Below, in pieces: positions 3,697 through 17,806 of a DNA stretch of 64,000 bases. The translations under genes and the position numbers were made by a program. This stretch comes from an uncultured Bryobacterales bacterium (GTDB lineage Bacteria > Acidobacteriota > Terriglobia > Bryobacterales > UBA6623): assembly GCA_951813065.1 (NCBI GenBank), contig CATOTH010000009.1:310001-374000 (forward strand), written 5' to 3'. The stretch's first letter is position 1. Each line of letters starts with the position of its first letter. Under the pieces are notes generated by a model. It was not told where the DNA came from. It did not search any database and saw only the letters and a list, made by a program, of their open reading frames with translations.

Positions 3697-5100
3697 ATGG
3701 CGATGGGCACCCTCGAACCCGGGCAGACCCCGATGTTCCTCACCCCCGGCCAGCTGCCCGAGGCCCCGACAGCGCCCTTCTTCGACAAGCTCAACGAACT
3801 GCTCGCCCAGATGGGCTTCGACGCCTATGTCGAGCAGCTCTGCCGACCCTTCTATGCCGAGCGCATGGGACGTCCCTCGCTGGCCCCCGGCGTCTGCTTC
3901 CGGCTGCTGCTGCTCGGCTACCTGCTGGGCATCGACTCCGAGCGCGGCATCGCCCTGACGGTTGCCGACTCGCTCGGCCTGCGGCGCTTCCTCGGCTACG
4001 AGCTGTAGCAGAGCCCGCCCGACCACTCGACGCTCTCGCGCACCCGGCGGTGGATCAGCCTTGAGACCCACGAGCAGGTGTTCGCCTGGGTGCTGCAGCG
4101 GCTGCGCGAGGCGGGTCTGGCCGACGGGCGGACGGTGGCGGTGGACGCCACGATGCTGTTCGCCAACGCGGCGTTGCAGACCTTGCGGCGCAAGGACAGC
4201 CAGGCGGGGTGCCGGGAGTTCGTGGAGGAGCTGGCAGCGGCGGCCGGGGTGCCGACGCCGACCTTGACGGAGTTGGCGGCCTTCGACCGCAAGCGCAAAG
4301 GCAAGACGCTGTCGAACCCGGAGTGGGAGTCGCCCACGGATCCGGATGCGCGGGTGGCGAAGATGAAGGCTGGGACGACGCACCTGGCGCACAAGGCGGA
4401 GCACGCGGTGGACTTGGAGAGCGGGGCACTGGTAGGCGTGACGCTGCAGGCAGCGGACCGAGGCGACAGCGCCACGCTGGGGACGACGCTGGAGGCGGTG
4501 GAGACAGCCCCAGGGGAGGGGCCGGAACAGGTGGTGGCGGACAAGGGTTACCACAGCGATGGGGTGCTGCTGGGGCTGGAGGAGGCGGGGCAGGCAGCGC
4601 ACATTCCGGAGCCGCGGCGGGCGGAGCGGGATTTCGAGGGTAAGCCGGAAACGGAGCGGGTGGTGCAGGGCAACCGGGAGCGTCTGGCGAGTCCGGCCGG
4701 CAAGCGCCTGCAGAAGCTGCGGACGGAGAAGGTCGAGCGGTCGATGGCCCACCTGTACGAGACAGGCGGGATGCGGCGGCTGTACTAGCGGGGGCGGGCG
4801 AACAGCCGCAAGCGGCTGCTGGTACAAGCCTGCGGATTCAACCTGGGAGTGCTGATGAGGTCGGTCACAGGGATCGGCACGCCCCGCACGCTGCAAGGAC
4901 AGGGGGATCAACCGGCTGCCCACCAGATAGCCCCCGGCTATGTGCCGTTCCGGAGGACCTGGAGCGGCCTTCTGGACACGGTCAGGGGCCTGTGGGGCCT
5001 CCGTGCGAGGAAACTGCCCGGAAATCGCCGCGGAACTCGCGTAGGCCATCGAAGGACCACCAGGCAAGGCCGCCGACCGGTGTCGTCGGCAAAGCCTTAA
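3697..5100 (+). pseudogene. IS1182-like transposase with two in-frame TAG codons
   Basis: One frame runs from ATG 3697 to the TAA at 5098-5100 and is interrupted only by TAG at 4006-4008 and 4786-4788. The N-terminal part (MGFDAYVEQLCRPFYAER) resembles the DUF772/InsH N-terminal transposase domain. The middle carries DDE-type landmarks: VDATMLFANAAL, VVADKGYHSDGVL and MAHLYETGGMRR. The C-terminal part (RKRLLVQACGFNLGVLMR) continues in frame after the second stop. Homology-like sequence runs straight through both stops, so two point nonsense mutations explain it best and the enzyme is probably dead. The catalytic core alone (4009-4788) would lack the N-terminal domain. Programmed readthrough is possible but unsupported. 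Confidence 0.75.
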
Positions 5101-5111: not shown

Positions 5112-5197
5112 ATAAAAGTGGACAAGATTTGTGTCATCGATAACTTGAATTCGAAGATTGAACGGGGTACCATCTAGCAAGAGGAGTCCGTATAGCT

Positions 5198-6487
5198 ATG
5201 CATGCAAGACGATGCGACGGTATCCGGCGCCGGGACATGTTGAAGGTCGGCTCGCTGGCGTTCCTAGGGATGACGCTTCCGGAATGGCAGCGGCTCCGGG
5301 CAAGCGCGGCGGAAGCGAAGTCCTGCATCTTTATCTGGCTTGACGGCGGCCCCAGCCATCTGGACACGTTCGACCTGAAGCCGGATGCCCCGATCGAGAT
5401 TCGCGGCAATTTCAAGCCGATCCCGACGGCGGTGCCGGGGATTCACGTCTGCGAGCATCTCCCGAAGATCGCGCGTCACATGAAGAAGATCGCGGTAGTC
5501 CGGACCGTCACGTCCGCGATCGGGGAGCATGACCAGGCCGGGATCTACCTGAACACGGGGTACAAGCCGACGCCCGCCTTGGTGTATCCCGGTTACGGCG
5601 CCGTGCTCAGCAAGCTCAACGGCGGCAGCGACGCCATTCCCCCGTATATCGCGGCGCCGCACGCCAGGCCCTACATGGGCCCGGGCTACCTGCCGGGTTC
5701 CTTTGGCCCCTTCAATGTCGGAGACGACCTCCGCAAGCACACGCTCAAGGTGCGGGACATGGATTTTCCCATTGGCATGAGCGAGGAACGGATGCGCCGG
5801 CGGCGGAGCATGGTCGAGAAACTCGATTCCTTCCAGCGCTCCGTGGACGAGAGTGCGGCAGCCCGTGACCGCGGAAGCTATTTCGAGCAGGCGTACCGCC
5901 TGGTGACCGCGCCCGCAGCCAAGAGCGCCTTTGACCTGTCCCAGGAATCCGACGCGACACGTAGGCGCTATGGCGCCAAGATCGGGCAGAGTTGCCTGTT
6001 GGCCCGGCGCTTGGTCGAGGGCGGCGCGAAGTTTGTCACCGTGGTGGACGTCGGCTGGGACACGCACTTGAAGATTGACTACAACCTGACCTACGGGTTC
6101 CCCGGTAAGCTGCCCGGGCTGGACGCCGCCCTGAGTTCGCTGCTTGAGGATCTGGAGGAGCGCGGCCTTCTCGAAACGACCTTGGTGGTTGTGATGGGCG
6201 AGTTTGGGCGTACGCCGAAGATCAACCCGCGTGGCGGCCGCGATCACTGGCCCGGGGCGAATTCGATGCTGTTTGCCGGTGGAGGGGTCCTGGGTGGCCA
6301 GGTGATTGGCAGAACAGACGCCCGCGGTGAACTACCGGCCGAAAACCCCGTCTCGCCGGAGGATCTGGCCCGCACACTCTACACGTTGCTCGGCGTCAAT
6401 CCGGACCAGACGTTCGAGACGTCCGATGGCAGGCCGATCCAGCTGGTTCATGGTGGGCGCGTGATCCGGGAGTTGATGACGGGCTGA
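5198..6487 (+). CDS. DUF1501 family Tat-exported protein
   Basis: This 429-residue protein starts at ATG with AGAGGAG upstream. The leader has a twin-arginine-like stretch (IRRRDMLKVGSLAFLG), so export in folded form is likely. Family landmarks follow: FIWLDGGPSHLDTFDLKP near residue 50, LARRLVEGGAKFVTV and WDTHL in the middle, and VVVMGEFGRTPKINPRGGRDHWP toward the end. DUF1501 proteins resemble the alkaline phosphatase/sulfatase fold, but their reaction is not established. It is first in a four-gene run, 3 bases before the WD40 gene, and is probably co-transcribed with the cytochrome-like protein two genes on. Confidence 0.9.
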   Translation: MHARRCDGIRRRDMLKVGSLAFLGMTLPEWQRLRASAAEAKSCIFIWLDGGPSHLDTFDLKPDAPIEIRGNFKPIPTAVPGIHVCEHLPKIARHMKKIAVVRTVTSAIGEHDQAGIYLNTGYKPTPALVYPGYGAVLSKLNGGSDAIPPYIAAPHARPYMGPGYLPGSFGPFNVGDDLRKHTLKVRDMDFPIGMSEERMRRRRSMVEKLDSFQRSVDESAAARDRGSYFEQAYRLVTAPAAKSAFDLSQESDATRRRYGAKIGQSCLLARRLVEGGAKFVTVVDVGWDTHLKIDYNLTYGFPGKLPGLDAALSSLLEDLEERGLLETTLVVVMGEFGRTPKINPRGGRDHWPGANSMLFAGGGVLGGQVIGRTDARGELPAENPVSPEDLARTLYTLLGVNPDQTFETSDGRPIQLVHGGRVIRELMTG

Positions 6488-6490
6488 AGC

Positions 6491-7420
6491 ATGAAGCCCG
6501 CCTCGCTGCTGTTGGCCGTGGGCCTCGTCCCGGCATTGTTGGCGGGCCCTATAGCCGAGGTTCGCTTTTCCCCGGATGGTGACGTCTTGGCCTTGGCGGG
6601 TGGGGAGACCGTCAGGCTTACACGTTTGGTGGGCCCGCCGCGGCACGACGAGGTGCTCTTAACCGGAATTAAGCAGGTCTTCGCGGTCGACTGGAGCGCG
6701 GATGGCGACTGGCTAGCCGTCGGCGGGGGAACACCAGCTCAGTCTGGCAGGGTCGAGCTTTGGAAGCGTGACGGAAAACAGGCCGAGCGCAGCTGGACAG
6801 GGTTCAAGGACCTGGTTTACGGTTTGGGCCTTGATCCGCAGGGTCGGTGGTTGGCAGCGGCCGCAGGGGAGGGGTTCGTGTCGGTGTTTGACAGGGAAAC
6901 CGGGGCAGAGCTGGCCAAGCTGGAGGGCCACACCGGTCCGGTCCTTTGCGTCGAATTCTCCCCCGATGGCAGGATCCTCGCGAGCGGTGCTGCCGACCGG
7001 TCCATCCGGCTGTGGGACACCGAGAGCTGGAACGAGCTGCGGACGCTGCTGAACCACAATGACGCTGTGCACGCCGTAGTCTTCTCTCCGGACGGGCAGA
7101 CGCTCTATACTGCTTCGTTCGATGCCACCGTGCGAATCTGGGATCCGGCTATTGGACGCATGAAGCGGATCAATCGGGGCTTCGGCCGGGGCCTGCTCGG
7201 CATGGCCTACCAGACTGAGGGGCATCGCCTGTTGGCGGGCACTGCGGACGGGCGAGTGTTTCTGGCGGAGGCCGACACGGGCGAGATCGTGGAGGAGATC
7301 ACTTCGATGCCCTCGCGCAGGACCGCATGGGTGCACACAGTCGATGTCTCCGCTGATTCCAATTGGTTCGCCTGGGCGGACAGCGAGGGCCGCTATCAAC
7401 TGAAGAGGGTGCGGCGATGA
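6491..7420 (+). CDS. Exported WD40-repeat beta-propeller protein
   Basis: This 309-residue protein has a short signal peptide (MKPASLLLAVGLVPALLAGP) followed by WD40-type repeats such as VLCVEFSPDGRILASG..IRLWDTES and VHAVVFSPDGQTLYTAS..VRIWDPA, which recur along its length. The length fits one propeller. No catalytic motif was seen, so a scaffold or binding role is likely. WD40 proteins commonly accompany DUF1501 and cytochrome-like genes in Planctomycetota-type clusters. Its stop overlaps the ATG of the next gene (ATGA), which points to translational coupling and a shared complex. Confidence 0.88.
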   Translation: MKPASLLLAVGLVPALLAGPIAEVRFSPDGDVLALAGGETVRLTRLVGPPRHDEVLLTGIKQVFAVDWSADGDWLAVGGGTPAQSGRVELWKRDGKQAERSWTGFKDLVYGLGLDPQGRWLAAAAGEGFVSVFDRETGAELAKLEGHTGPVLCVEFSPDGRILASGAADRSIRLWDTESWNELRTLLNHNDAVHAVVFSPDGQTLYTASFDATVRIWDPAIGRMKRINRGFGRGLLGMAYQTEGHRLLAGTADGRVFLAEADTGEIVEEITSMPSRRTAWVHTVDVSADSNWFAWADSEGRYQLKRVRR

Positions 7421-10188
7421 GCGTCTTCAGAGTGATTCTGCTCTTATGCCTCGGAGGGCTTGTTTCAGCCTCCGGAATGGCGGAGGAGATCCTCTACTCC
7501 GGACCGCAGCCGGGCGAAGCGCTACCGGGTTTTGAGGCTCTTGCCGTCAATGGGCCGCACTCCGGTAGGGTGCATGACTTCGTCACCGAGTACGGCGATG
7601 CTCCGATCTTGCTCATCTTCGCGCACTACATCGACCGCAATGTGTACGGAGTCTGGTGGCCGAGCGACCGCTACGCGGCCGAACGAAGCATAGCTGGCCT
7701 GAGGACGTTGTTTGTCTACTTGGCGCCGGACCGCGTGTCCGGCGAGCGGCGCATGCATCAGGTCAAGAAGTCGCTCACCTTGGAGGTGCCGGCGGCCGTG
7801 TCGATCGATGGAGTGGAGGGACCGGGTGCTTACGGGCTCAACCGGCAAGTGGGGGTCACAGCCATCATTGCCAAGGACAAGCGGGTCGTCGCCAATATCA
7901 CGTTGGTGCAGCCGGGCCTGGTCGACGCCCCTAGGATCATCGCGGAGGCTGCCAAGCTGGTGGGCGGTCATGTGCCCACGGGCGAGGAACTCGCCGATCA
8001 CGGGCCCCGGTACAGGATGAAGAGCGCTGTCCGGACGCCATACGAGGGCCCGTTCTCAGAGTCGCGAAGCGGGTTCATCCAAGAATCGGAGGATGTCCCC
8101 GATTTCGTGACGCAGGTGCAGCCCAAGATGGTCAAGGCCGGCTGTTTCTCCGGTGGGTGCCACGGTGCTGCGGCCGGGAAGGGGGGATTCAGTCTCTCAC
8201 TGCTCGGCTACGACCCGGAAATGGACTACGAGTCGATTGTCCGGCAGTACTGGGGCAGGCGATTGAATTTCGTTCGCCCGCGCGAGAGCTTGGTGCTTCA
8301 GAAGCCGACCTTTCAGGTGGTCCACGAGGGGGGTGTGCGCTTCTCGCCGGACTCGGAAACCTACCGCGACCTGCTGGCGTGGATTGAAGCGGGAGCGCCG
8401 TTCCGATCCGTGAATCCCCGCCAAATCACCAATCTCGAGGTCGTACCTGCTTCTCGCACCGTGGAGCGGCCCGGTACGGAGGGGCAGCTCCAGGTGTTGG
8501 CGAGTTTTTCGGACGGGAAGCGCGAGGACGTCACGGCTTACGCGCTCTATATGTCGAACGACGACGCGGTCGCATCGATCGATCAAGACGGAAAGTTCAC
8601 GGTCAACGCCGTGGGCGAGACCAGTCTCAGCGCGCGCTACATGGGTCGGTTTGCAAACGCACGCGTCGGCATTCCCTTCGGCGGGGACCGAGAGACCATC
8701 GCCCGCCAGCTTGAGGGGCAGTCCTCGTTCATTGACGAGCTGGTCGGACGGAACCTGCTCCGGCTCGGGATCGAGCCCTCGGAACTCTGCACGGATGCCG
8801 AATTCGCCCGGCGGGCCTATCTGGATATCACCGGCACGCTCCCCACTGCGGCCGAGGCGCGGGCTTTTCTGGCTGACGATCGGAGCGACAGGCGGGGCCG
8901 GTTGGTCGAGGAGTTGCTGACCCGGCCGGAGTTCGCCCAGTACTGGTCGCTTTGGCTGCTGGACCTGTTGCGCGTCAACGGACGGACCATCGGGGTGGAG
9001 AACCTGGCGGTCTTCGCGGACTGGATCCGGATGGGGCTGGAGGACGACAGATCCCTCGGCACGATGGTCCGGGAGATCCTGACGGCTGTCGGCGATGGAA
9101 CTGAAGTCGCTGCAGCCAATTTCCTGCGGCGAGAGACTGATCCGAAGCTGCAGATGGAGCTGACTACAGAGGCCCTGATGGGCTCCCGGTCCCGGTGCGC
9201 CCAGTGCCACAATCACCCGTTCGACAGCTGGACGCAAACGCAGTACCACCAGATGGCCGCGTTCTTCGTGCGGGTCACTAAGACGGAAAAGGGCATCGCC
9301 CTGATCGATCACGGCGAGATCGAGCATCCCAAGACCGGCGAGATCGTCGCCCCTGGTTTTCCGGATGGCAAGCTGGCGAAACTGGATGGCGACGAGGATC
9401 GTCGGACGGCGCTCGCAAGCTGGATGGCCTCCCCCGAGAACCGCTATTTCGCCCGGTCCATGGCCAACAGGATTTGGGAACGGCTCATGGGACGCGGAGT
9501 GGTTGAGCCGGTTGATTTCCTGAGCGCCAGCAACCCGCCCACCAATCCGGAACTGCTGGACGCGCTCGAAGCGTTCTTCAAGGTGGGCGACGGCAACGAA
9601 GACAGGCCGTACTCGGTCAAGTCCCTAATTGCCGAGATTGTCCGCAGCCGCGCCTACCAGAGAAGCGCGGCGGCCAGTTCCAACAACCAGCGCGATGACC
9701 GCTTCTACTCCCGGGCCTTGGCACAGCCCCTCGACGCGTACGCATTCGTCGATGCCGTTTCTCAGGTGACGGGAATGTCTGAGGCCTTCACTGACCTACC
9801 GCCGACAACCCGCGCGATCGGGGTGCCCGATGCGAGCGTGGAATCGTACCTGCTCGATGTCTGCGGCCGATGCCGCCGGGAGGGTTCCTGCGACGAGGCC
9901 AATTCGGCTTCGGGCGGAGTGCGTCAGGCGCTGCATTTGATCAACGGTCCGGCGATCAACTCCAAGATCAGCGCACCCGGAAGCCGGCTGGACCGGCTTC
10001 TGGCAGACAACGCATCGCCGTCGGCGATCGCCGAGGAGTTCTACTACGCGGCCCTGAGCCGTCCCCCGACTGACGACGAGCGGGAGTTCTGGTTTTCCGA
10101 GGTGAACCGGTCCGAAGGGGCCCGGTCGGTTTACGAGGATCTGGTGTGGGCTCTGCTAAACACACGACAATTCGTCTTCAACAGGTGA
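7417..10188 (+). CDS. Thioredoxin-like / Ig-like / DUF1549-DUF1553 cytochrome-like fusion protein
   Basis: This 923-residue protein starts at the ATG overlapping the WD40 stop and has a Sec signal peptide. Residues about 25-200 form a thioredoxin-like domain without a CxxC pair, homologous to the whole product of the next gene. A cytochrome-like segment follows with the unusual motif C243-FSGG-C248-H249. Residues about 337-423 look like a bacterial Ig-like (BIG2) domain (VLASFSDGKREDVTAYA). DUF1549 follows with C594-AQ-C597-H598 NHPFDSW, then DUF1553 (MANRIWERLMGRG, ALHLINGPAINSKI). It is presumably a periplasmic haem protein working with DUF1501; the substrate is unknown. An upstream in-frame ATG at 7363 would lose the signal peptide, so it was not used. 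Confidence 0.87.
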   Translation: MSVFRVILLLCLGGLVSASGMAEEILYSGPQPGEALPGFEALAVNGPHSGRVHDFVTEYGDAPILLIFAHYIDRNVYGVWWPSDRYAAERSIAGLRTLFVYLAPDRVSGERRMHQVKKSLTLEVPAAVSIDGVEGPGAYGLNRQVGVTAIIAKDKRVVANITLVQPGLVDAPRIIAEAAKLVGGHVPTGEELADHGPRYRMKSAVRTPYEGPFSESRSGFIQESEDVPDFVTQVQPKMVKAGCFSGGCHGAAAGKGGFSLSLLGYDPEMDYESIVRQYWGRRLNFVRPRESLVLQKPTFQVVHEGGVRFSPDSETYRDLLAWIEAGAPFRSVNPRQITNLEVVPASRTVERPGTEGQLQVLASFSDGKREDVTAYALYMSNDDAVASIDQDGKFTVNAVGETSLSARYMGRFANARVGIPFGGDRETIARQLEGQSSFIDELVGRNLLRLGIEPSELCTDAEFARRAYLDITGTLPTAAEARAFLADDRSDRRGRLVEELLTRPEFAQYWSLWLLDLLRVNGRTIGVENLAVFADWIRMGLEDDRSLGTMVREILTAVGDGTEVAAANFLRRETDPKLQMELTTEALMGSRSRCAQCHNHPFDSWTQTQYHQMAAFFVRVTKTEKGIALIDHGEIEHPKTGEIVAPGFPDGKLAKLDGDEDRRTALASWMASPENRYFARSMANRIWERLMGRGVVEPVDFLSASNPPTNPELLDALEAFFKVGDGNEDRPYSVKSLIAEIVRSRAYQRSAAASSNNQRDDRFYSRALAQPLDAYAFVDAVSQVTGMSEAFTDLPPTTRAIGVPDASVESYLLDVCGRCRREGSCDEANSASGGVRQALHLINGPAINSKISAPGSRLDRLLADNASPSAIAEEFYYAALSRPPTDDEREFWFSEVNRSEGARSVYEDLVWALLNTRQFVFNR

Positions 10189-10192
10189 CCTC

Positions 10193-10870
10193 ATGCATGC
10201 ACACTCAGTAGCACACGTTCGCGCCGGGACGCTGTGCGCCGTTCTTCTGGGGGCGGCTACGCTCCTTCCAGCGCAACAGGTGCGGTACTCAGGGCCTCAG
10301 AGCGGCGAGTCTCTCGAGCCCTTCTCTGTCCTGGCTGTCAACGGGCCCGAGGCCGGGACCGAAGTCGACTTCATCTCGCGGTGGGGCGAAGATCCGATGC
10401 TGATCATCTTTCTGCATCAGCTGGACCGCAATATCGCCGCGTTGCTCCGTCCCTGTGAATGGTTCGCCCACGAGCGCGCCGAAGCAGGATTGAAGTCCCT
10501 GATCGTCTTCTTGCACGACGACAAGATCTTTGGCGAGCGGCGAATGCAGGCCGTGGTGAAATCGATGGGCATCAGGATTCCGGTCGGGGTTTCCGTGGAA
10601 GGCGTTGAAGGGCCGGGCCCTTACGGCCTCAACAAGAGCGTCGCGATCACAATCCTGGTGGCCAAGAACCGCAAGGTAACGGACAATTACGCGATCGTGC
10701 AGGCAGGTGTGGTCGACGCTCCCAAGGTCTTGAAGTCTGTCGCGGCCCATGTGGGGGGCGACGTCGACAAGCTGATGGCGAGAGTCCACGACGCGGATCA
10801 GAGAGCCATGATGGCCCGTCGGGCAAGGGCGATGCAGGCGGAACAGTCCAAGTCCGACGACAGTAAGTGA
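10193..10870 (+). CDS. Exported thioredoxin-like (redoxin-fold) protein without CxxC
   Basis: This 225-residue protein has a signal peptide (CAVLLGAATLLPAQQ). It starts 4 bases after the preceding stop. The body matches the N-terminal domain of the preceding protein: YSGPQSGESL, LAVNGPEAG, GERRMQAVVKS, EGVEGPGPYGLNKSV and QAGVVDAPKV all have counterparts there. The only cysteines are in or near the leader and in LRPCEWF, so thiol redox chemistry is unlikely. The C-terminus ends in a charged helix rich in Arg, Ala and Met. The gene closes the operon and may be a partner of the fused domain or a duplicate of it. Confidence 0.82.
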   Translation: MHAHSVAHVRAGTLCAVLLGAATLLPAQQVRYSGPQSGESLEPFSVLAVNGPEAGTEVDFISRWGEDPMLIIFLHQLDRNIAALLRPCEWFAHERAEAGLKSLIVFLHDDKIFGERRMQAVVKSMGIRIPVGVSVEGVEGPGPYGLNKSVAITILVAKNRKVTDNYAIVQAGVVDAPKVLKSVAAHVGGDVDKLMARVHDADQRAMMARRARAMQAEQSKSDDSK

Positions 10871-11074
10871 TCCGACGCACCTCGCCGCCAAGATGGGCCT
10901 TGGAGGCAGGCGATCGTATTCGCAGCCTCGCGACTATCTCGAGGCCGGCAACCTCGCCGCGACAACTGCCGCCGAGTGTCCCTGGTCCCCGGCTCGCGCG
11001 CCCCTGTCACGCGCGCTGAGAGAATTGGTTTCGGGGGAGACTGGAACCACGGCGCAATATCGCGGGTTGGAGCG

Positions 11075-12670
11075 TCAGTCGTAGTACTCAAGGCCCAAGT
11101 GCGTGATCATTTGTTCTCCGGCCATCCAGCGCAGAGTGTTCTTCAGTTTCATCAACTGGATGAAAATGTCGTGCTCGGGATAGAGCTGAGCCGGCACCAT
11201 CGGCGACTTGAAATAGAACGACAGCCACTCTTGGATGCCGACTAGGCCAGCGCGCTGAGCGAGATCGAGGAACAGCGCCAGGTCCAGGACCAGCGGCGCG
11301 GCCAGGATCGAGTCGCGGCAGAGGAAGTTGACCTTCAGTTGCATCGGATAGCCCAGCCAGCCGGTCAGGTCGATGTTGTCCCAGCCCTCCTTGTTGTCGC
11401 CGCGCGGTGGGTAGTAGTTGATCCGAACCATGTGCGAGAACCCGGCATAGAGTTCCGGGTAGTGCTCCGGCTGGAGGATGACGTCGAGAGCGCCGAGCTT
11501 GCTCTCCTCCTTGGTCTTGAACGAGTCCGGCTCCTCCAGGACGACCCCGTCCCGGTTGCCGAGAATATTGGTGGAAAACCAGCCGTCCACCCCCAGGAGG
11601 CGCGCCTTCAGCCCGGGCGCGATGAGCGTCTTCATGAATGTCTGCCCGGTCTTGAAGTCCTTTCCGCACACCGGGACCTGGCGTTCCTTTGCAAGCTGCT
11701 GCAGGGCGGGGATGTCGGCGGTCAGGTTTGGTGCTCCGTTCGCGAACGGAACGCCGCACTGCAGCGCGGCGTATGCATAGATTTGCGAAGGGGCGATGTT
11801 GGGATTGTTGGACAGCAGGCCCGTTTCGAACGCCTCCAGCGAGGTATGCACATCCGTGGGGCGCAGTAGCGTCTCGGTGGATCCGCACCAGACCATGACG
11901 GCCCGGTCAACAGCCTGGACGCGTTTGAATTCCTCGATGTCCCGGACCAGCGCCTCGGCCAGAGCCATCTTGTTGCTGCCATGCTTGACATTTGAACCGC
12001 TAAGACGAGGCACGTAGCTGGGCTCGAAGACGGCCGCCATCGGTCGGACGGCCCTGAGATCCTCTTCCGCTTGACCGAGCAGGCTGGGATCGATCACACC
12101 GGCCGTTTGGGCTGCCTCGTACCCATCCTGTCCATGGATATCCCATCCGCCAAACACCAGCTTGTCGATTCCTTGCAGCTCAAGAAGGTCGCGGATCAGC
12201 GGGTTGCGCTTGTCGGTTCGCTTGCTGAGACGGATTCGGCCCATCTGCGTCAGCGAGCCGACGGGCTTGGCCACGCCCCTGTTGATCAAGGCGATACCGC
12301 CCATCGTGGTAGTTGCCACGGCACCTAGGCCAGGCAGGAGCACACCTAGGCGCCCACTTGGCGGAGCAATGCGCGGCGGAGCCATCCGCGAGAGAAACCG
12401 CTCGGAGAACTTGGCTCCGTCAGCGCCCACCGTTCTCCGGTTGCCGGTCAACAGTTCCTCTTGCCTGCTGTCCGCGACAAAGCGCCCTTCTTCAATGCAC
12501 TCGCGAAGCTCCCAGAGCGGCAGCCCCAAGGTGTCGGCGACCTGCGCCGCATCGCTGAACTTCAGATCCCGCTTGCGCTGCACTAGGCCGAGATAGAGCT
12601 GCTGATACCCGATTCGGGTGCGCTCCGCCAACAGCTTGAGATTGACAAAATAAGTGGATTGATTATCCAT
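11075..12670 (-). CDS. ino1: Myo-inositol-1-phosphate synthase family protein with N-terminal helix-turn-helix
   Basis: This 531-residue protein converts glucose-6-phosphate to inositol-phosphate with NAD if the family function holds. Residues 107-531 show the family landmarks: a dinucleotide loop LLPGLGAVATTTMGGI (111-126), FANGAPNLTAD (309-319), GKDFKTGQT (336-344) and STNILGNRDG (366-375). Residues 1-60 are an extra segment that reads like an XRE/LacI-type helix-turn-helix (LAERTRIGYQQLYLGL, then VADTLGLPLWEL). Bacterial relatives normally start near residue 100. The ATG at 12670 fits a near-perfect -10 box six bases upstream. The gene is divergent from the DUF1592 gene. Confidence 0.88.
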   Translation of the reverse strand: MDNQSTYFVNLKLLAERTRIGYQQLYLGLVQRKRDLKFSDAAQVADTLGLPLWELRECIEEGRFVADSRQEELLTGNRRTVGADGAKFSERFLSRMAPPRIAPPSGRLGVLLPGLGAVATTTMGGIALINRGVAKPVGSLTQMGRIRLSKRTDKRNPLIRDLLELQGIDKLVFGGWDIHGQDGYEAAQTAGVIDPSLLGQAEEDLRAVRPMAAVFEPSYVPRLSGSNVKHGSNKMALAEALVRDIEEFKRVQAVDRAVMVWCGSTETLLRPTDVHTSLEAFETGLLSNNPNIAPSQIYAYAALQCGVPFANGAPNLTADIPALQQLAKERQVPVCGKDFKTGQTFMKTLIAPGLKARLLGVDGWFSTNILGNRDGVVLEEPDSFKTKEESKLGALDVILQPEHYPELYAGFSHMVRINYYPPRGDNKEGWDNIDLTGWLGYPMQLKVNFLCRDSILAAPLVLDLALFLDLAQRAGLVGIQEWLSFYFKSPMVPAQLYPEHDIFIQLMKLKNTLRWMAGEQMITHLGLEYYD

Positions 12671-12676
12671 AAAGAT

Positions 12677-12682
12677 ATTATA
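12677..12682 (-). promoter_or_regulatory. -10 box TATAAT giving a likely leaderless ino1 transcript
   Basis: A perfect TATAAT lies on the minus strand with six bases between it and ATG 12670. That puts the expected transcription start on the A of the start codon. No good -35 hexamer is present; the -35 position falls inside the palindrome at 12691-12711. No ribosome site precedes the ATG, which fits leaderless translation. Confidence 0.55.
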
Positions 12683-12690
12683 GCAGTAGC

Positions 12691-12711
12691 AAATTATCGA
12701 GTTGATAATTT
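12691..12711. promoter_or_regulatory. Candidate operator: perfect 8-5-8 palindrome
   Basis: AAATTATC-gagtt-GATAATTT is a perfect inverted repeat covering the -35 region of the ino1 promoter. Related half-sites GATTATC occur at 12661-12667, inside the first codons, and at 12743-12749. The gene product carries a helix-turn-helix, so self-repression is a natural hypothesis. Confidence 0.5.
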
Positions 12712-13119
12712 ATAGGGATCATCTGTCCGTCGTATTTTCTAAGATTATCAAGATGGCCACACAAAATGGCGAGGGCCGGATTCGCGCTTACGGTCTCGAA
12801 TCGCGTGACCGTCTCGAGAACTGCCAAGTGCAGGCGGCGTGACGGCTTCTCCGCAACGTGGGAACCCGGCTCTGCTCCGACCGACGAATCGATCCTGAAT
12901 CGGTCCGACCTCTGTCAGCTTCGAATAGACCGCCGATCGGGTCCGGCTGGAATGCCGAGTGTGTTGGGAATCGAGTTAGAACCATTCATTGAATCGCGTG
13001 TCGCGGTACAATTGGAGCAACTTTCTAGAGACGGCAAACCCCCGGTCCGGCGGCACATCACTATTTCCACGACTGGGGCGTATCGTCGATTCCGGAGGGA
13101 CATCGAGGTTGCAGAGTTG
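12712..13119. other. Divergent intergenic region between ino1 and the DUF1592 gene
   Basis: The frame of the downstream gene is open from ATG 12766, but the 118 codons before 13120 read as basic, non-domain-like sequence with no signal peptide. They are therefore treated as untranslated. Apart from the half-site at 12743, no structure was seen. Confidence 0.45.
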
Positions 13120-15207
13120 ATGCGGGGCTTGTCTTGGTGGGTTGCAACCCGCTGCCGCGCGGCTGGCTTGCTGGCTGTGGCCATTTTCGTGTCGCCACAC
13201 CTCCTGGCTGCCGACAGCGACGTCTTGAGGGACGTCTTGCAGCCAGTCTTCCGGCAGAATTGCGTCCAGTGCCATGGCGCGCTCGGGGATCCCAATGGGA
13301 ACGTCAACCTCGTTGCACTGAACAGTGTGGCCAACCTTACGAGCGATCCAGAACTGATCAGGAATCTTGTTCGAGTGCTAGATTCCGGGGTCATGCCTCC
13401 CGTCGGTGCGCCCGCGCTGGCTCAGGACCAGCGCAGACAGGTTGTCGACGAACTCCGGGAATTGCTGCATCTCGCGGTCAGCTCCCAGAAGGCGTTTCCC
13501 CAAACACCGATTCGACGAATGAATCGCTTCCAGTACAACAACGCCGTCCAGGACCTGCTGGAACTGCAAGTCGAAGTCTTCGCCCTACCCGAGCGCATGC
13601 TCCGCGAGTATGGTTATTTTCGTCCGGAGACCGGCAGGATGCCTGACGCGCTCAAGGCTGGCAGCCGCCCGTTAGGCAAGTCTCAGTTGATCGGCAAGCG
13701 ACTTGCCGGTGTCGTGCCCTTTCCGCAGGACCTTCGGGCGGAGCACGGTTACGACAACCGCGGAGATCACCTGACCTTGTCGCCGCTCTTGCTGGAATCA
13801 TTTCTCACGCTGAGCCGATCAATCGTTGAGAGCCCGGACTTCAACGAGCAGACGAGCCGGGCCTGGATGCGCCTGTTCTCGCCGCCAGCCGATGGCGGGG
13901 ACAGGGAGAACGCGGTCAGGGAATCGTTGCGGAAATTCCTTACGAGGGCGTTCCGCCGACCTGTCGATCGCGTCCTCTTGGATCGCTACGCCAACTTTGC
14001 GCTGAGACAAATCGAGGCCACCGGGTCCTTCGCTGACGGCATGAAGTCTGCCGTCGCCGCCGCGCTGGCGTCGCCGCGATTCCTCTATCTTTACGATCGC
14101 GGAGGTGCTGACGACAGTGCCGAGCGGCTCGACGATTTCGAATTGGCATCCCGTCTCTCGTTCTTCCTGTGGGGCAGTATTCCGGACCAGACCTTGCTGG
14201 ACTTGGCCGCCGACGGGAAGCTCCGTGACCCAGGCGTGCTGCGGCAACAGGTCCAGCGCATGTTGCAGGACGCTCGCCTGAAGCGCTTTTGCGACAGCTT
14301 CCCAACGCAATGGCTGCAGCTCGAGCGCATCGTGTCCGCGGTTCCCGACCCGCAACGATTCCCGGATTTCTACTTCGCCAAGTACCGCTCGAGCATGCAC
14401 ATGATGCTGGAGCCGCTGCTGCTTTTCGAGGCGATCCTCATCGAAGACCGCTCCATCCTGGAACTGGTGGATTCGGATTTCAGCTATCGCAGCGAATTGC
14501 TGGACTCGTGGTACCTGGACGGTACTCGTCCCCAGAGAGTCCCGCCGGTTCAGATTCCATTTCGCCGTGTTCGGGTGGAGGACCGCCGGCAGGGCGGGGT
14601 GATCACCAATGTGGCTGTCATGACCATGACATCCGGGCCGATGGAGACACGACCAATCACCCGGGGAGCCTGGATCGCCAGCGTTGTCTTCAAGGACCCG
14701 CCGGATCCGCCGCCTGCCAACGTGCCGCCACTGCCGCATGAGGAGGAATCTGACACGGTCGCAGCCCTTACCATGCGGGAACGCTTCGAGGCACATCGCA
14801 CACAACCGGACTGCGCGAGTTGCCATGTCAAGATCGATCCCTTGGGTTTTGCCCTGGAGAACTACGGTCCCACCGGAGTCTGGCGGGACACGTATGACAA
14901 TGGCCGATCGGTGGACGCGGGCGGGGTCCTCTTCGGACGGCACAAGTTCGATGACATCGTCGAGTTCAAGGACGCGATCCTTGCGGAAAAGAGCCTCTTT
15001 GCTCGCGCCTTTTCCGGGCACGTGCTCGAGTTTGCTCTGGGGCGGGAACTGGACGCCTCGGACGAGCCGGCGCTGGATCGGATTGTGCGTGAAACAGACA
15101 AGGCCGACTATAGGATTCAAGAAATGATTCAACAGATTGTGCTCAGCGATCCGTTTCTGCGGAAGTACAATCCGACTAGACTAGGAGAACAGCCCCAGGC
15201 GGACTGA
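13120..15207 (+). CDS. Planctomycete-type cytochrome c protein (DUF1587/1595/1592/1588/1585)
   Basis: This 695-residue protein takes the ATG in front of a signal peptide (AAGLLAVAIFVSPHLLAA). Domains run in the usual order. A cytochrome c-like module has C48-VQ-C51-H52, then DUF1587 (RMNRFQYNNAVQDLLEL), DUF1595 (FLTRAFRRPVDRVLLDRY), DUF1592 (LASRLSFFLWGSIPD) and DUF1588 with a second haem-type motif C565-AS-C568-H569. DUF1585 closes the protein (FSGHVLEFALGRELDASDE). It is probably a periplasmic dihaem oxidoreductase or electron acceptor of unknown substrate. Four bases separate it from the DUF1552 gene, its regular partner in sequenced genomes. Confidence 0.9.
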   Translation: MRGLSWWVATRCRAAGLLAVAIFVSPHLLAADSDVLRDVLQPVFRQNCVQCHGALGDPNGNVNLVALNSVANLTSDPELIRNLVRVLDSGVMPPVGAPALAQDQRRQVVDELRELLHLAVSSQKAFPQTPIRRMNRFQYNNAVQDLLELQVEVFALPERMLREYGYFRPETGRMPDALKAGSRPLGKSQLIGKRLAGVVPFPQDLRAEHGYDNRGDHLTLSPLLLESFLTLSRSIVESPDFNEQTSRAWMRLFSPPADGGDRENAVRESLRKFLTRAFRRPVDRVLLDRYANFALRQIEATGSFADGMKSAVAAALASPRFLYLYDRGGADDSAERLDDFELASRLSFFLWGSIPDQTLLDLAADGKLRDPGVLRQQVQRMLQDARLKRFCDSFPTQWLQLERIVSAVPDPQRFPDFYFAKYRSSMHMMLEPLLLFEAILIEDRSILELVDSDFSYRSELLDSWYLDGTRPQRVPPVQIPFRRVRVEDRRQGGVITNVAVMTMTSGPMETRPITRGAWIASVVFKDPPDPPPANVPPLPHEEESDTVAALTMRERFEAHRTQPDCASCHVKIDPLGFALENYGPTGVWRDTYDNGRSVDAGGVLFGRHKFDDIVEFKDAILAEKSLFARAFSGHVLEFALGRELDASDEPALDRIVRETDKADYRIQEMIQQIVLSDPFLRKYNPTRLGEQPQAD

Positions 15208-16597: not shown

Positions 16598-17806
16598 TCA
16601 GGCAGCTTCCGCATACGGTTCTGGAGCGACGCACGGCCCAACGGCCCACGTTTGCGCTCCGGCGGCGATAACCCCGGCCGCCAAGATGTTGAGCGCGGCA
16701 TTGAGATCCCGATCCGCGACCAAGCCGCAGCTCACGCAGCGGTAGGTCTCCGACTTGCCCGGATGGTTCCGGGCGCCGCACCGACTGCACTGCTGCGACG
16801 TGTATTGCGGGTTCACTGCTACGAACTCTCGACCGGCCCACTCTGCCTTGTACCTGAGTTGCGAAAATAGAAGTGACCAATTCTGCGCTAAGACCTCCCG
16901 GTTGAGCCCGGCCTTGGCCTTCACATTCGAGCCCGGTTCCGCCGCCGTTCCCTTCCCCGACCGAGTCATGTTCTTGGTCCGCAGCTTTTCGACTGCGATC
17001 AGCCCGTGCTGGCGGATGATCTCGGTCGTGGCCCGGTGACAGGCGTTGCGTTCCCGCACGTACTCCTTGCGCGCATGCAGCGCCAAGGCTGCCCGGCGCT
17101 TGCCACGGTTGCGGCTGCCCTGACGGCAGCGCGCGAGCGCCCGCTGCAACTTGCGCTGCCGCTTGCGATTGCGCCGAGCGCGCGCGTAGCGCGTGCCGTC
17201 CGAGCAGGTCATGCGCTTGCGGACGCCCAGGTCGATGCCCACCGCCGTGACCGACGCTGGCAGCGCTTGCCGTTCGACCTCGTACACCAGCGACGCTTCC
17301 CACTTGCGGCCGCGCTTGGTCAGCCGCACCGCCTTCAGCGGCGCGTCCAGCGGCAGGCTCCGCCCGCTGTAGGCCCGCAGGCGCGGAAACCCCTTCACGC
17401 GAATCAGGTAGTGCCCGTTCTGGCAGCGCACCATGCCGTTGTGCGGACCGGCCACGTCGATCGTCACACACCGGCGGATGGAGCGGAATCTGGGAAAGCC
17501 GGGCGCCTCGCCCGCCTGCACGCGCCGAAAGAACGCCTGGAAGGCGTGGTCCAGCCGCCGCAGCATGCCGCGGCTGGCCCCGAGCGCAAGCTCTCCCAAG
17601 CCGCACTCGTTGGCTGCACGCAGTTGCGTCAGCCATTTGCACTGGTCGTAGAAGCTGAGCGACTCCTGGCGTTGCTCGTAGGCCAGCTTGCGGCGCTCCA
17701 AGGCCTGGTTGTAGAGCCAATTCAAGCGTCCTAGGAGCGACTCCATCATGGCGTACCCGGCCGGGCTTAACTTCAGCCGAACCAAGTATGCAGCCGGGGC
17801 TGTCAT
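16598..17806 (-). CDS. tnpB: TnpB (IS200/IS605 OrfB-like) RNA-guided nuclease
   Basis: This 402-residue protein is full length for TnpB. The N-terminal segment (GRLNWLYNQALERRK) matches the OrfB helix-turn-helix region. The RuvC residues look intact: D192 in GIDLGVRK, E273 in IAVEKLRTKNM, and an aspartate at 365 or 367 in VADRDLNAALNI. A zinc ribbon is formed by C340, C343, C357 and C360. Family members cut DNA guided by an RNA from the element right end. No TnpA is adjacent, so the unit is solitary and would need help to move. The guide RNA is expected to overlap the gene end and continue below 16598. Confidence 0.92.
   Translation of the reverse strand: MTAPAAYLVRLKLSPAGYAMMESLLGRLNWLYNQALERRKLAYEQRQESLSFYDQCKWLTQLRAANECGLGELALGASRGMLRRLDHAFQAFFRRVQAGEAPGFPRFRSIRRCVTIDVAGPHNGMVRCQNGHYLIRVKGFPRLRAYSGRSLPLDAPLKAVRLTKRGRKWEASLVYEVERQALPASVTAVGIDLGVRKRMTCSDGTRYARARRNRKRQRKLQRALARCRQGSRNRGKRRAALALHARKEYVRERNACHRATTEIIRQHGLIAVEKLRTKNMTRSGKGTAAEPGSNVKAKAGLNREVLAQNWSLLFSQLRYKAEWAGREFVAVNPQYTSQQCSRCGARNHPGKSETYRCVSCGLVADRDLNAALNILAAGVIAAGAQTWAVGPCVAPEPYAEAA

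Follow-up and report, generated by a model that had tools for sequence, protein, structure and literature searches.

What is a redoxin-fold domain doing when it occurs twice in succession, once at the N-terminus of a cytochrome and once as the next gene, with no CxxC pair in either copy, and by which route did such an arrangement arise? The question is posed by one gene cassette in the window, the whole 64,000-nucleotide stretch of an uncultured Bryobacterales genome analysed here. A sequence-only reading of this DNA had proposed that the fused and free domains are homologous and had offered fission, duplication or capture as their origin. Our preferred explanation, to which we assign a probability of roughly 0.7, is that a cysteine-less redoxin is a standing operon subunit of a planctomycete-type cytochrome, that it was duplicated, and that one copy (A) was later fused to the cytochrome (C), with a role in docking or ligand binding.

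A conserved cassette with two homologous domains

The cassette encodes a DUF1501 protein (D), a WD40 protein (W), the fusion and a free redoxin-like protein (B; Table 1). D and W lie upstream of the fusion on the same strand, separated by a gap of 3 nt; the end of W and the start codon of the fusion overlap as ATGA, and B starts 4 nt past the fusion stop. By-eye reading of D identified a Tat-like N-terminus (RRRDMLKVGSLAFLG). The fusion reading frame is open across the A-C junction, where purifying selection was also detected. Its cytochrome part is of the PSCyt2-PSD1 type by Pfam score (PSCyt2, 137.6 bits against a cut-off of 29.8; PSD1, 119.2 bits against 28.5), with c-type haem predicted from the CX4CH and CXXCH motifs; the CX4CH pattern was present in 21/21 homologous cytochromes compared.

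Table 1. Features of the cassette, in window coordinates.
Feature	Position	Strand	Description
DUF1501 protein (D)	5198..6487	+	First gene of the cassette; Pfam PF07394, E 1e-102
WD40 beta-propeller protein (W)	6491..7420	+	Pfam WD40, E 1e-39; signal-like N-terminus
Fusion protein, redoxin-like domain A + cytochrome C	7417..10188	+	923 aa; signal-like N-terminus
Redoxin-like domain A of fusion	7480..7986	+	Residues about 22-190; zero cysteines within domain
Linker of fusion	7987..8100	+	Residues about 191-228; junction alignment with relatives G821 and G924
CX4CH haem-type motif CFSGGCH	8143..8163	+	Residues 243-249; motif scan
Big_2 (Ig-like), weak match	8428..8625	+	Residues 338-403; Pfam E 0.0016, under curated cut-off
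PSCyt2 (DUF1549) domain	8731..9276	+	Residues 439-620; Pfam E 7e-40; CAQCH at 594-598
PSD1 (DUF1553) domain	9400..10086	+	Residues 662-890; Pfam E 2.5e-34
Free redoxin-like protein B	10193..10870	+	225 aa; signal-like N-terminus; without CxxC; predicted Trx/peroxiredoxin fold
Entire conserved cassette D-W-[A:C]-B	5193..10982	+	blastn against second genome G009: 87% over 5791 bp

Residues 22-186 of the fusion align without gaps to residues 27-191 of B, with 78/165 positions identical (47%; BLASTP E 2e-58). Together with the redoxin-like fold predicted for the domain, this significant pairwise alignment confirms that the same domain is present twice, in the fusion and in the adjoining gene. The stronger claim that the fused N-terminus matches the entire neighbouring product held only in part: the motifs quoted for it are all present and in the same order, but the last ~34 residues of B and its signal region are unaligned. 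Neither copy contains a CxxC, as had been stated. In the window's genome the fused domain and B were the sole matches to the B protein. No Pfam model scored above cut-off in either redoxin-like stretch, with no match to AhpC-TSA or Redoxin at E 1; an NCBIfam scan gave nothing above cut-off, a PDB sequence search found no significant match, and the viral contigs searched gave zero matches.

A second genome of the genus (G009; loci L005 and L006), whose contig matches GenBank VXMF01000048 from Terriglobia bacterium SB0661_bin_30, carries all four cassette genes at 85-94% amino-acid identity and the redoxin pair at 85-92%, so that the pair is no accident of assembly. Nucleotide similarity between the window and G009 ends at 5193 and 10982, bar one 73-bp piece, and because these ends coincide with the cassette edges, we regard the cassette as a discrete unit in differing surroundings. 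The 73-bp piece (window 11254-11326) is 88% identical to L005 11638-11709, outside the cassette, and is possibly a small repeat. Between the window and G009, dN/dS came to 0.07 (A), 0.09 (linker), 0.14 (C) and 0.165 (B domain), so that the fused frame is real and all these parts are maintained; the B tail gave 0.36. The nine remaining genomes of the genus have no more than paralogues (36-42%) of the cytochrome part, none with a redoxin part. The fused form is known here from two genomes of one genus.

In G009 the cassette is flanked by two sulfatase genes (L005:3201-4616, - strand, and 11923-13377, + strand), an arrangement not seen in the window. There, a myo-inositol-1-phosphate synthase gene (11075-12670, - strand) lies directly downstream on the opposite strand, and the remains of a DDE transposase (3697-4788, + strand), with DUF772 and DDE_Tnp_1 parts in different frames, lie just upstream. 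Further along, downstream of a DUF1552 gene, is an OrfB_IS605/TnpB-type gene with a Cas12f1-like TNB domain (16598-17806, - strand).

Duplication and fusion in the light of unfused relatives

Within the window's order the redoxin pair was found in 4/257 genomes, and the window's own genome gave the sole match among 297 acidobacterial genomes sampled across the phylum. G821 and G924, from another family of the order, read DUF1501-WD40-A-C-B: neither redoxin is fused, and the two flank a free C. A and C overlap by 4 nt, stop on start; A, C and B alike begin with a signal-like sequence of their own, and A and B carry 80-95 further C-terminal residues that are absent from both window copies. Where the linker sits in the fusion, these relatives have the extension at the end of A, its stop codon and the C signal peptide; a short linker replaced all three when A and C became one gene in the common ancestor of G009 and the window's genome, and B was likewise shortened.

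More distant counterparts occur in planctomycetes, where we denote the free redoxin gene R and the unfused cytochrome (CX4CH, PSCyt2, PSD1) C. A profile search matched 55/392 planctomycete genomes, distant CxxC-type kin included, and a class-level sample contained the domain in 93/397 genomes at E 1e-25. In the first set of SGPQ-type loci, 15 of 18 have R immediately 5' of C, with DUF1501 after each, as do all 20 further loci. The order R-C-DUF1501-WD40 was thus observed in 35/38 planctomycete loci, which include near-duplicates (e.g. L041/L042, L056/L057) and are not all independent, and an R-C fusion in none; among ~130 R matches from two samples, none fell within an open frame of >=700 aa. 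The window cassette has the same four gene types on one strand, as D-W-[A:C]-B vs the planctomycete R-C-D-W. Some planctomycete R proteins are themselves elaborated: L053:14489-15382 (- strand) ends in a YHS-like metal-binding domain (Pfam E 2.5e-6, just below cut-off), and those of L055:2934-4550 (+), L056:8727-10154 (+) and L124-L127 have 250-400 additional N-terminal residues, for which the two scanned (L055 and L056) gave no Pfam match. One planctomycete relative matched AhpC-TSA at E 0.027, under cut-off.

A second redoxin is also found in planctomycetes, as R1-C-DUF1501-WD40-R2 in three loci and as two tandem R genes before C in one. R2 forms its own clade (100/100), and the AU test rejected a shared origin with the acidobacterial second copy, at p 0.0023 whether R2 was joined to A or to B. 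Judged from sequence comparison, this operon has gained a second redoxin at least three times independently.

In the domain trees the eight acidobacterial copies fall together in a single clade (99/98 and 98/98), bearing out a common ancestor of both domains within this lineage. The fused domains group with free A of G821 and G924 (97/90 and 99/96), and the free window gene groups with their B, at moderate support (85/84); in the largest tree the B clade was not recovered, yet was not rejected (AU p 0.55). Each window domain is closer to its positional counterpart in G821 and G924 than to the other window domain, and the cytochrome tree places the window and G009 beside G821 and G924 (100/100). 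Since the fused domain and the free gene cluster with A and B respectively, the duplication came first and the fusion of A to C later. Of the three routes proposed at the outset, duplication therefore stands, followed by fusion, whereas fission conflicts with the unfused A and C of two same-order relatives and of all planctomycete loci read, and capture of a foreign domain is rejected because a redoxin gene already adjoins C in planctomycetes. Tandem copying of an R-C pair followed by loss of the second C was likewise discarded: no C remnant was found downstream of B in four genomes, with only 230-597 nt downstream in two of the four.

Two other histories deserve weighing against this order of events. 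The fused gene could be ancestral, the free copy or the separate A and C of the relatives having broken off from it, and the adjacency and clear homology of the fused and free copies would fit; yet C is unfused in G821, G924 and 35/35 planctomycete loci with R beside C, the fused genes are nested inside a clade of unfused A genes, and unfused A and C each possess a signal-like N-terminus, so that we consider fission highly improbable. Alternatively, a copying event private to this genus and younger than the fusion might have given B from the fused domain or the fused domain from B, as the first, sparser tree (34 rows) implied by placing the fused and free copies as sisters (94/92). That sisterhood was an effect of missing taxa and disappeared once G821 and G924 were added, at which point the A/B split predated the separation of the families; the AU test rejects a grouping of the two window copies on their own (p = 0.0035 and 0.020), and both genes occupy the same positions in G821 and G924, leaving a recent private duplication improbable.

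A predicted redoxin fold without redox cysteines

The domain has a predicted thioredoxin/peroxiredoxin-like alpha/beta fold. An AlphaFold2 model of B (mean pLDDT 75.8, from a shallow alignment of 5 sequences) matched thiol-disulfide oxidoreductases and peroxiredoxins (ResA, Bcp4, AhpE) in Foldseek and VIA-align, with the best VIA Z of 16.9 to Bcp4 (3hjp) and 16.2 to ResA (1st9). The resemblance to ResA, Bcp and AhpE lies in this fold (VIA Z 15-17 over 130-148 residues); in contrast to them, the window domains have no CxxC or conserved Cys, share only 8-16% identity and match neither Pfam AhpC-TSA nor Redoxin. In the model of B, strand 69-74 and the helix that begins at 79 are joined by a loop, the place of the CxxC in thioredoxins, which reads HQLD (HQLD-RN); strand, loop and helix are free of Cys. 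A model of the first 439 residues of the fusion was uninformative (pLDDT 29 from 2 sequences).

B has a lone Cys88, with Ser at the same place in the window's fused copy (7660-7671, WWPSDR). Cys stands there in the G009 fusion and in the free A of G821 and G924 (WPCDR), and by this comparison the lone Cys has been lost from the fused copy in the window's genome. Among 24 SGPQ-type relatives, Cys88 is present in five and is the best column for a conserved peroxidatic Cys, of which there is none; the 24 have no conserved Cys column and no CxxC, and both CxxC positions are non-Cys across the whole SGPQ group. The column before invariant Thr153, a putative counterpart of the cis-Pro that faces the active site in catalytic thioredoxin folds, has no Pro in any of the 24. 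Arg79, SGP 33-35, Gly38, Ser134, Gly137, Gly140-Pro141, Gly145 and Thr153 are invariant in them. With no conserved Cys and these residues kept, the domain is unlikely to perform thiol chemistry yet retains a conserved surface, which may bind a ligand or partner.

Distant planctomycete kin of the domain, exported and of similar length (L030, L031, L025, L028), differ by a CxxC-type pair at the place of DxxS or DxxQ in the SGPQ group. They carry LCYRC(R/K)YG, except that in four an in-frame TGA stands for the second Cys (LCYV-TGA; L025 ~1594-1605 and L028 ~1636-1647 on the + strand, L027 and L022 on the - strand). Hairpins predicted just 3' of the TGA have energies of -12 to -25 kcal/mol, vs -7 to -14 in the Cys versions, and the LCYV-TGA form looks like a selenocysteine CxxU variant. 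L025 and L028, the two scanned, gave no NCBIfam match, and the form had no obvious match in the accessible part of a 2026 prokaryotic selenoproteome table. Neither L051 nor L059, the two such kin whose surroundings were inspected, lies beside PSCyt2.

These observations bear on whether the domain is catalytic and whether B has a role of its own. A working redox enzyme, acting through Arg79, Cys88 in some copies or a partner thiol as a reductase or peroxidase that feeds the haems, would suit a redoxin fold beside a c-type cytochrome, the conserved SGPQxGE and SxDGxEGPGxYGLN stretches, which suggest that a functional surface is kept, and the CYRC or CYV-TGA pairs of distant planctomycete relatives. 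Against it stand the lack of any Cys conserved in the 24 relatives, the loss of Cys88 from the window's fused copy and the non-Cys residues at both CxxC positions throughout the SGPQ group, and we judge it rather unlikely. We hold it unlikely, too, that B is a decaying and redundant leftover of the duplication: it evolves faster than A, has lost its C-terminal extension and has a tail at dN/dS 0.36, but it is intact in four genomes of two families and under purifying selection, and second redoxins arose independently elsewhere.

The preferred reading is that R most likely binds C as a non-catalytic subunit. Gene fusion is classical evidence of physical contact between products, and the natural fusion seen here, together with the conserved R-C adjacency, is evidence for such binding and suggests that redoxin and cytochrome work in physical contact. 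The redoxin-like domain would be a cysteine-less subunit in the operon of a CX4CH, PSCyt2 and PSD1 cytochrome, alongside DUF1501 and WD40 proteins, all of them probably exported, given signal-like or Tat-like starts read by eye. Duplication in the acidobacterial lineage would have placed A upstream and B downstream of the cytochrome gene, and the fold would contact the cytochrome without thiol chemistry, as a module for docking or ligand binding. Fusion would fix a 1:1 ratio of A to C and may have rendered the R extension dispensable, with B presumably in the same complex. That the free copy may pair with the fused one is plausible, the best indirect argument being the repeated independent gain of a second redoxin. 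A bolder version, which we put forward tentatively and think doubtful as it stands, is that an obligate A-B pair forms a structural, ligand-binding subunit of PSCyt2/DUF1501 complexes, evolved several times and once welded to the cytochrome, with the lost R extension as the usual tether to C.

Implications for PSCyt2/DUF1501 systems

PSCyt2/PSD1 proteins are tentatively linked to redox reactions and perhaps to carbohydrate use (PMC5615132, PMC2754498), and PMC5615132 states that nothing is known of the function of PSCyt2/PSD1/DUF1501 systems. R. baltica is reported to have 41 PSCyt2 (PMC2754498), and the window's 5.6-Mb genome (G000) has 56 PSCyt2 places, four of them inside the window. The fusion resembles the established PSCyt2 (PF07583/DUF1549)-PSD1 (PF07587/DUF1553) cytochromes in its domains, the CXXCH in PSCyt2, the DUF1501 neighbour and the many paralogues. 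Published combinations include CBM, Big_2, WD40 and F5_F8, and the main text that lists them mentions no redoxin domain (PMC5615132). Our search of the literature library found no report of a redoxin in PSCyt operons. An N-terminal redoxin-fold fusion to a PSCyt2-PSD1 cytochrome was seen, across our acidobacterial and planctomycete samples, only in the window's genome and G009. The operon type and the fold are already known; the fusion is new and the cysteine-less subunit has no name in the libraries searched.

In several phyla, single genomes contain tens of PSCyt2/PSD1/DUF1501 systems. The fusion of genes that otherwise lie side by side predicts contact between their products and gives a defined R + C pair (about 280 and 700 aa). 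Should the obligate-pair version be true, PSCyt2/DUF1501 complexes would contain paired cysteine-less redoxins. On the reading that we prefer, the system gains a recurrent, un-modelled subunit, a redoxin fold without redox cysteines whose conserved surface points to a ligand or partner site.
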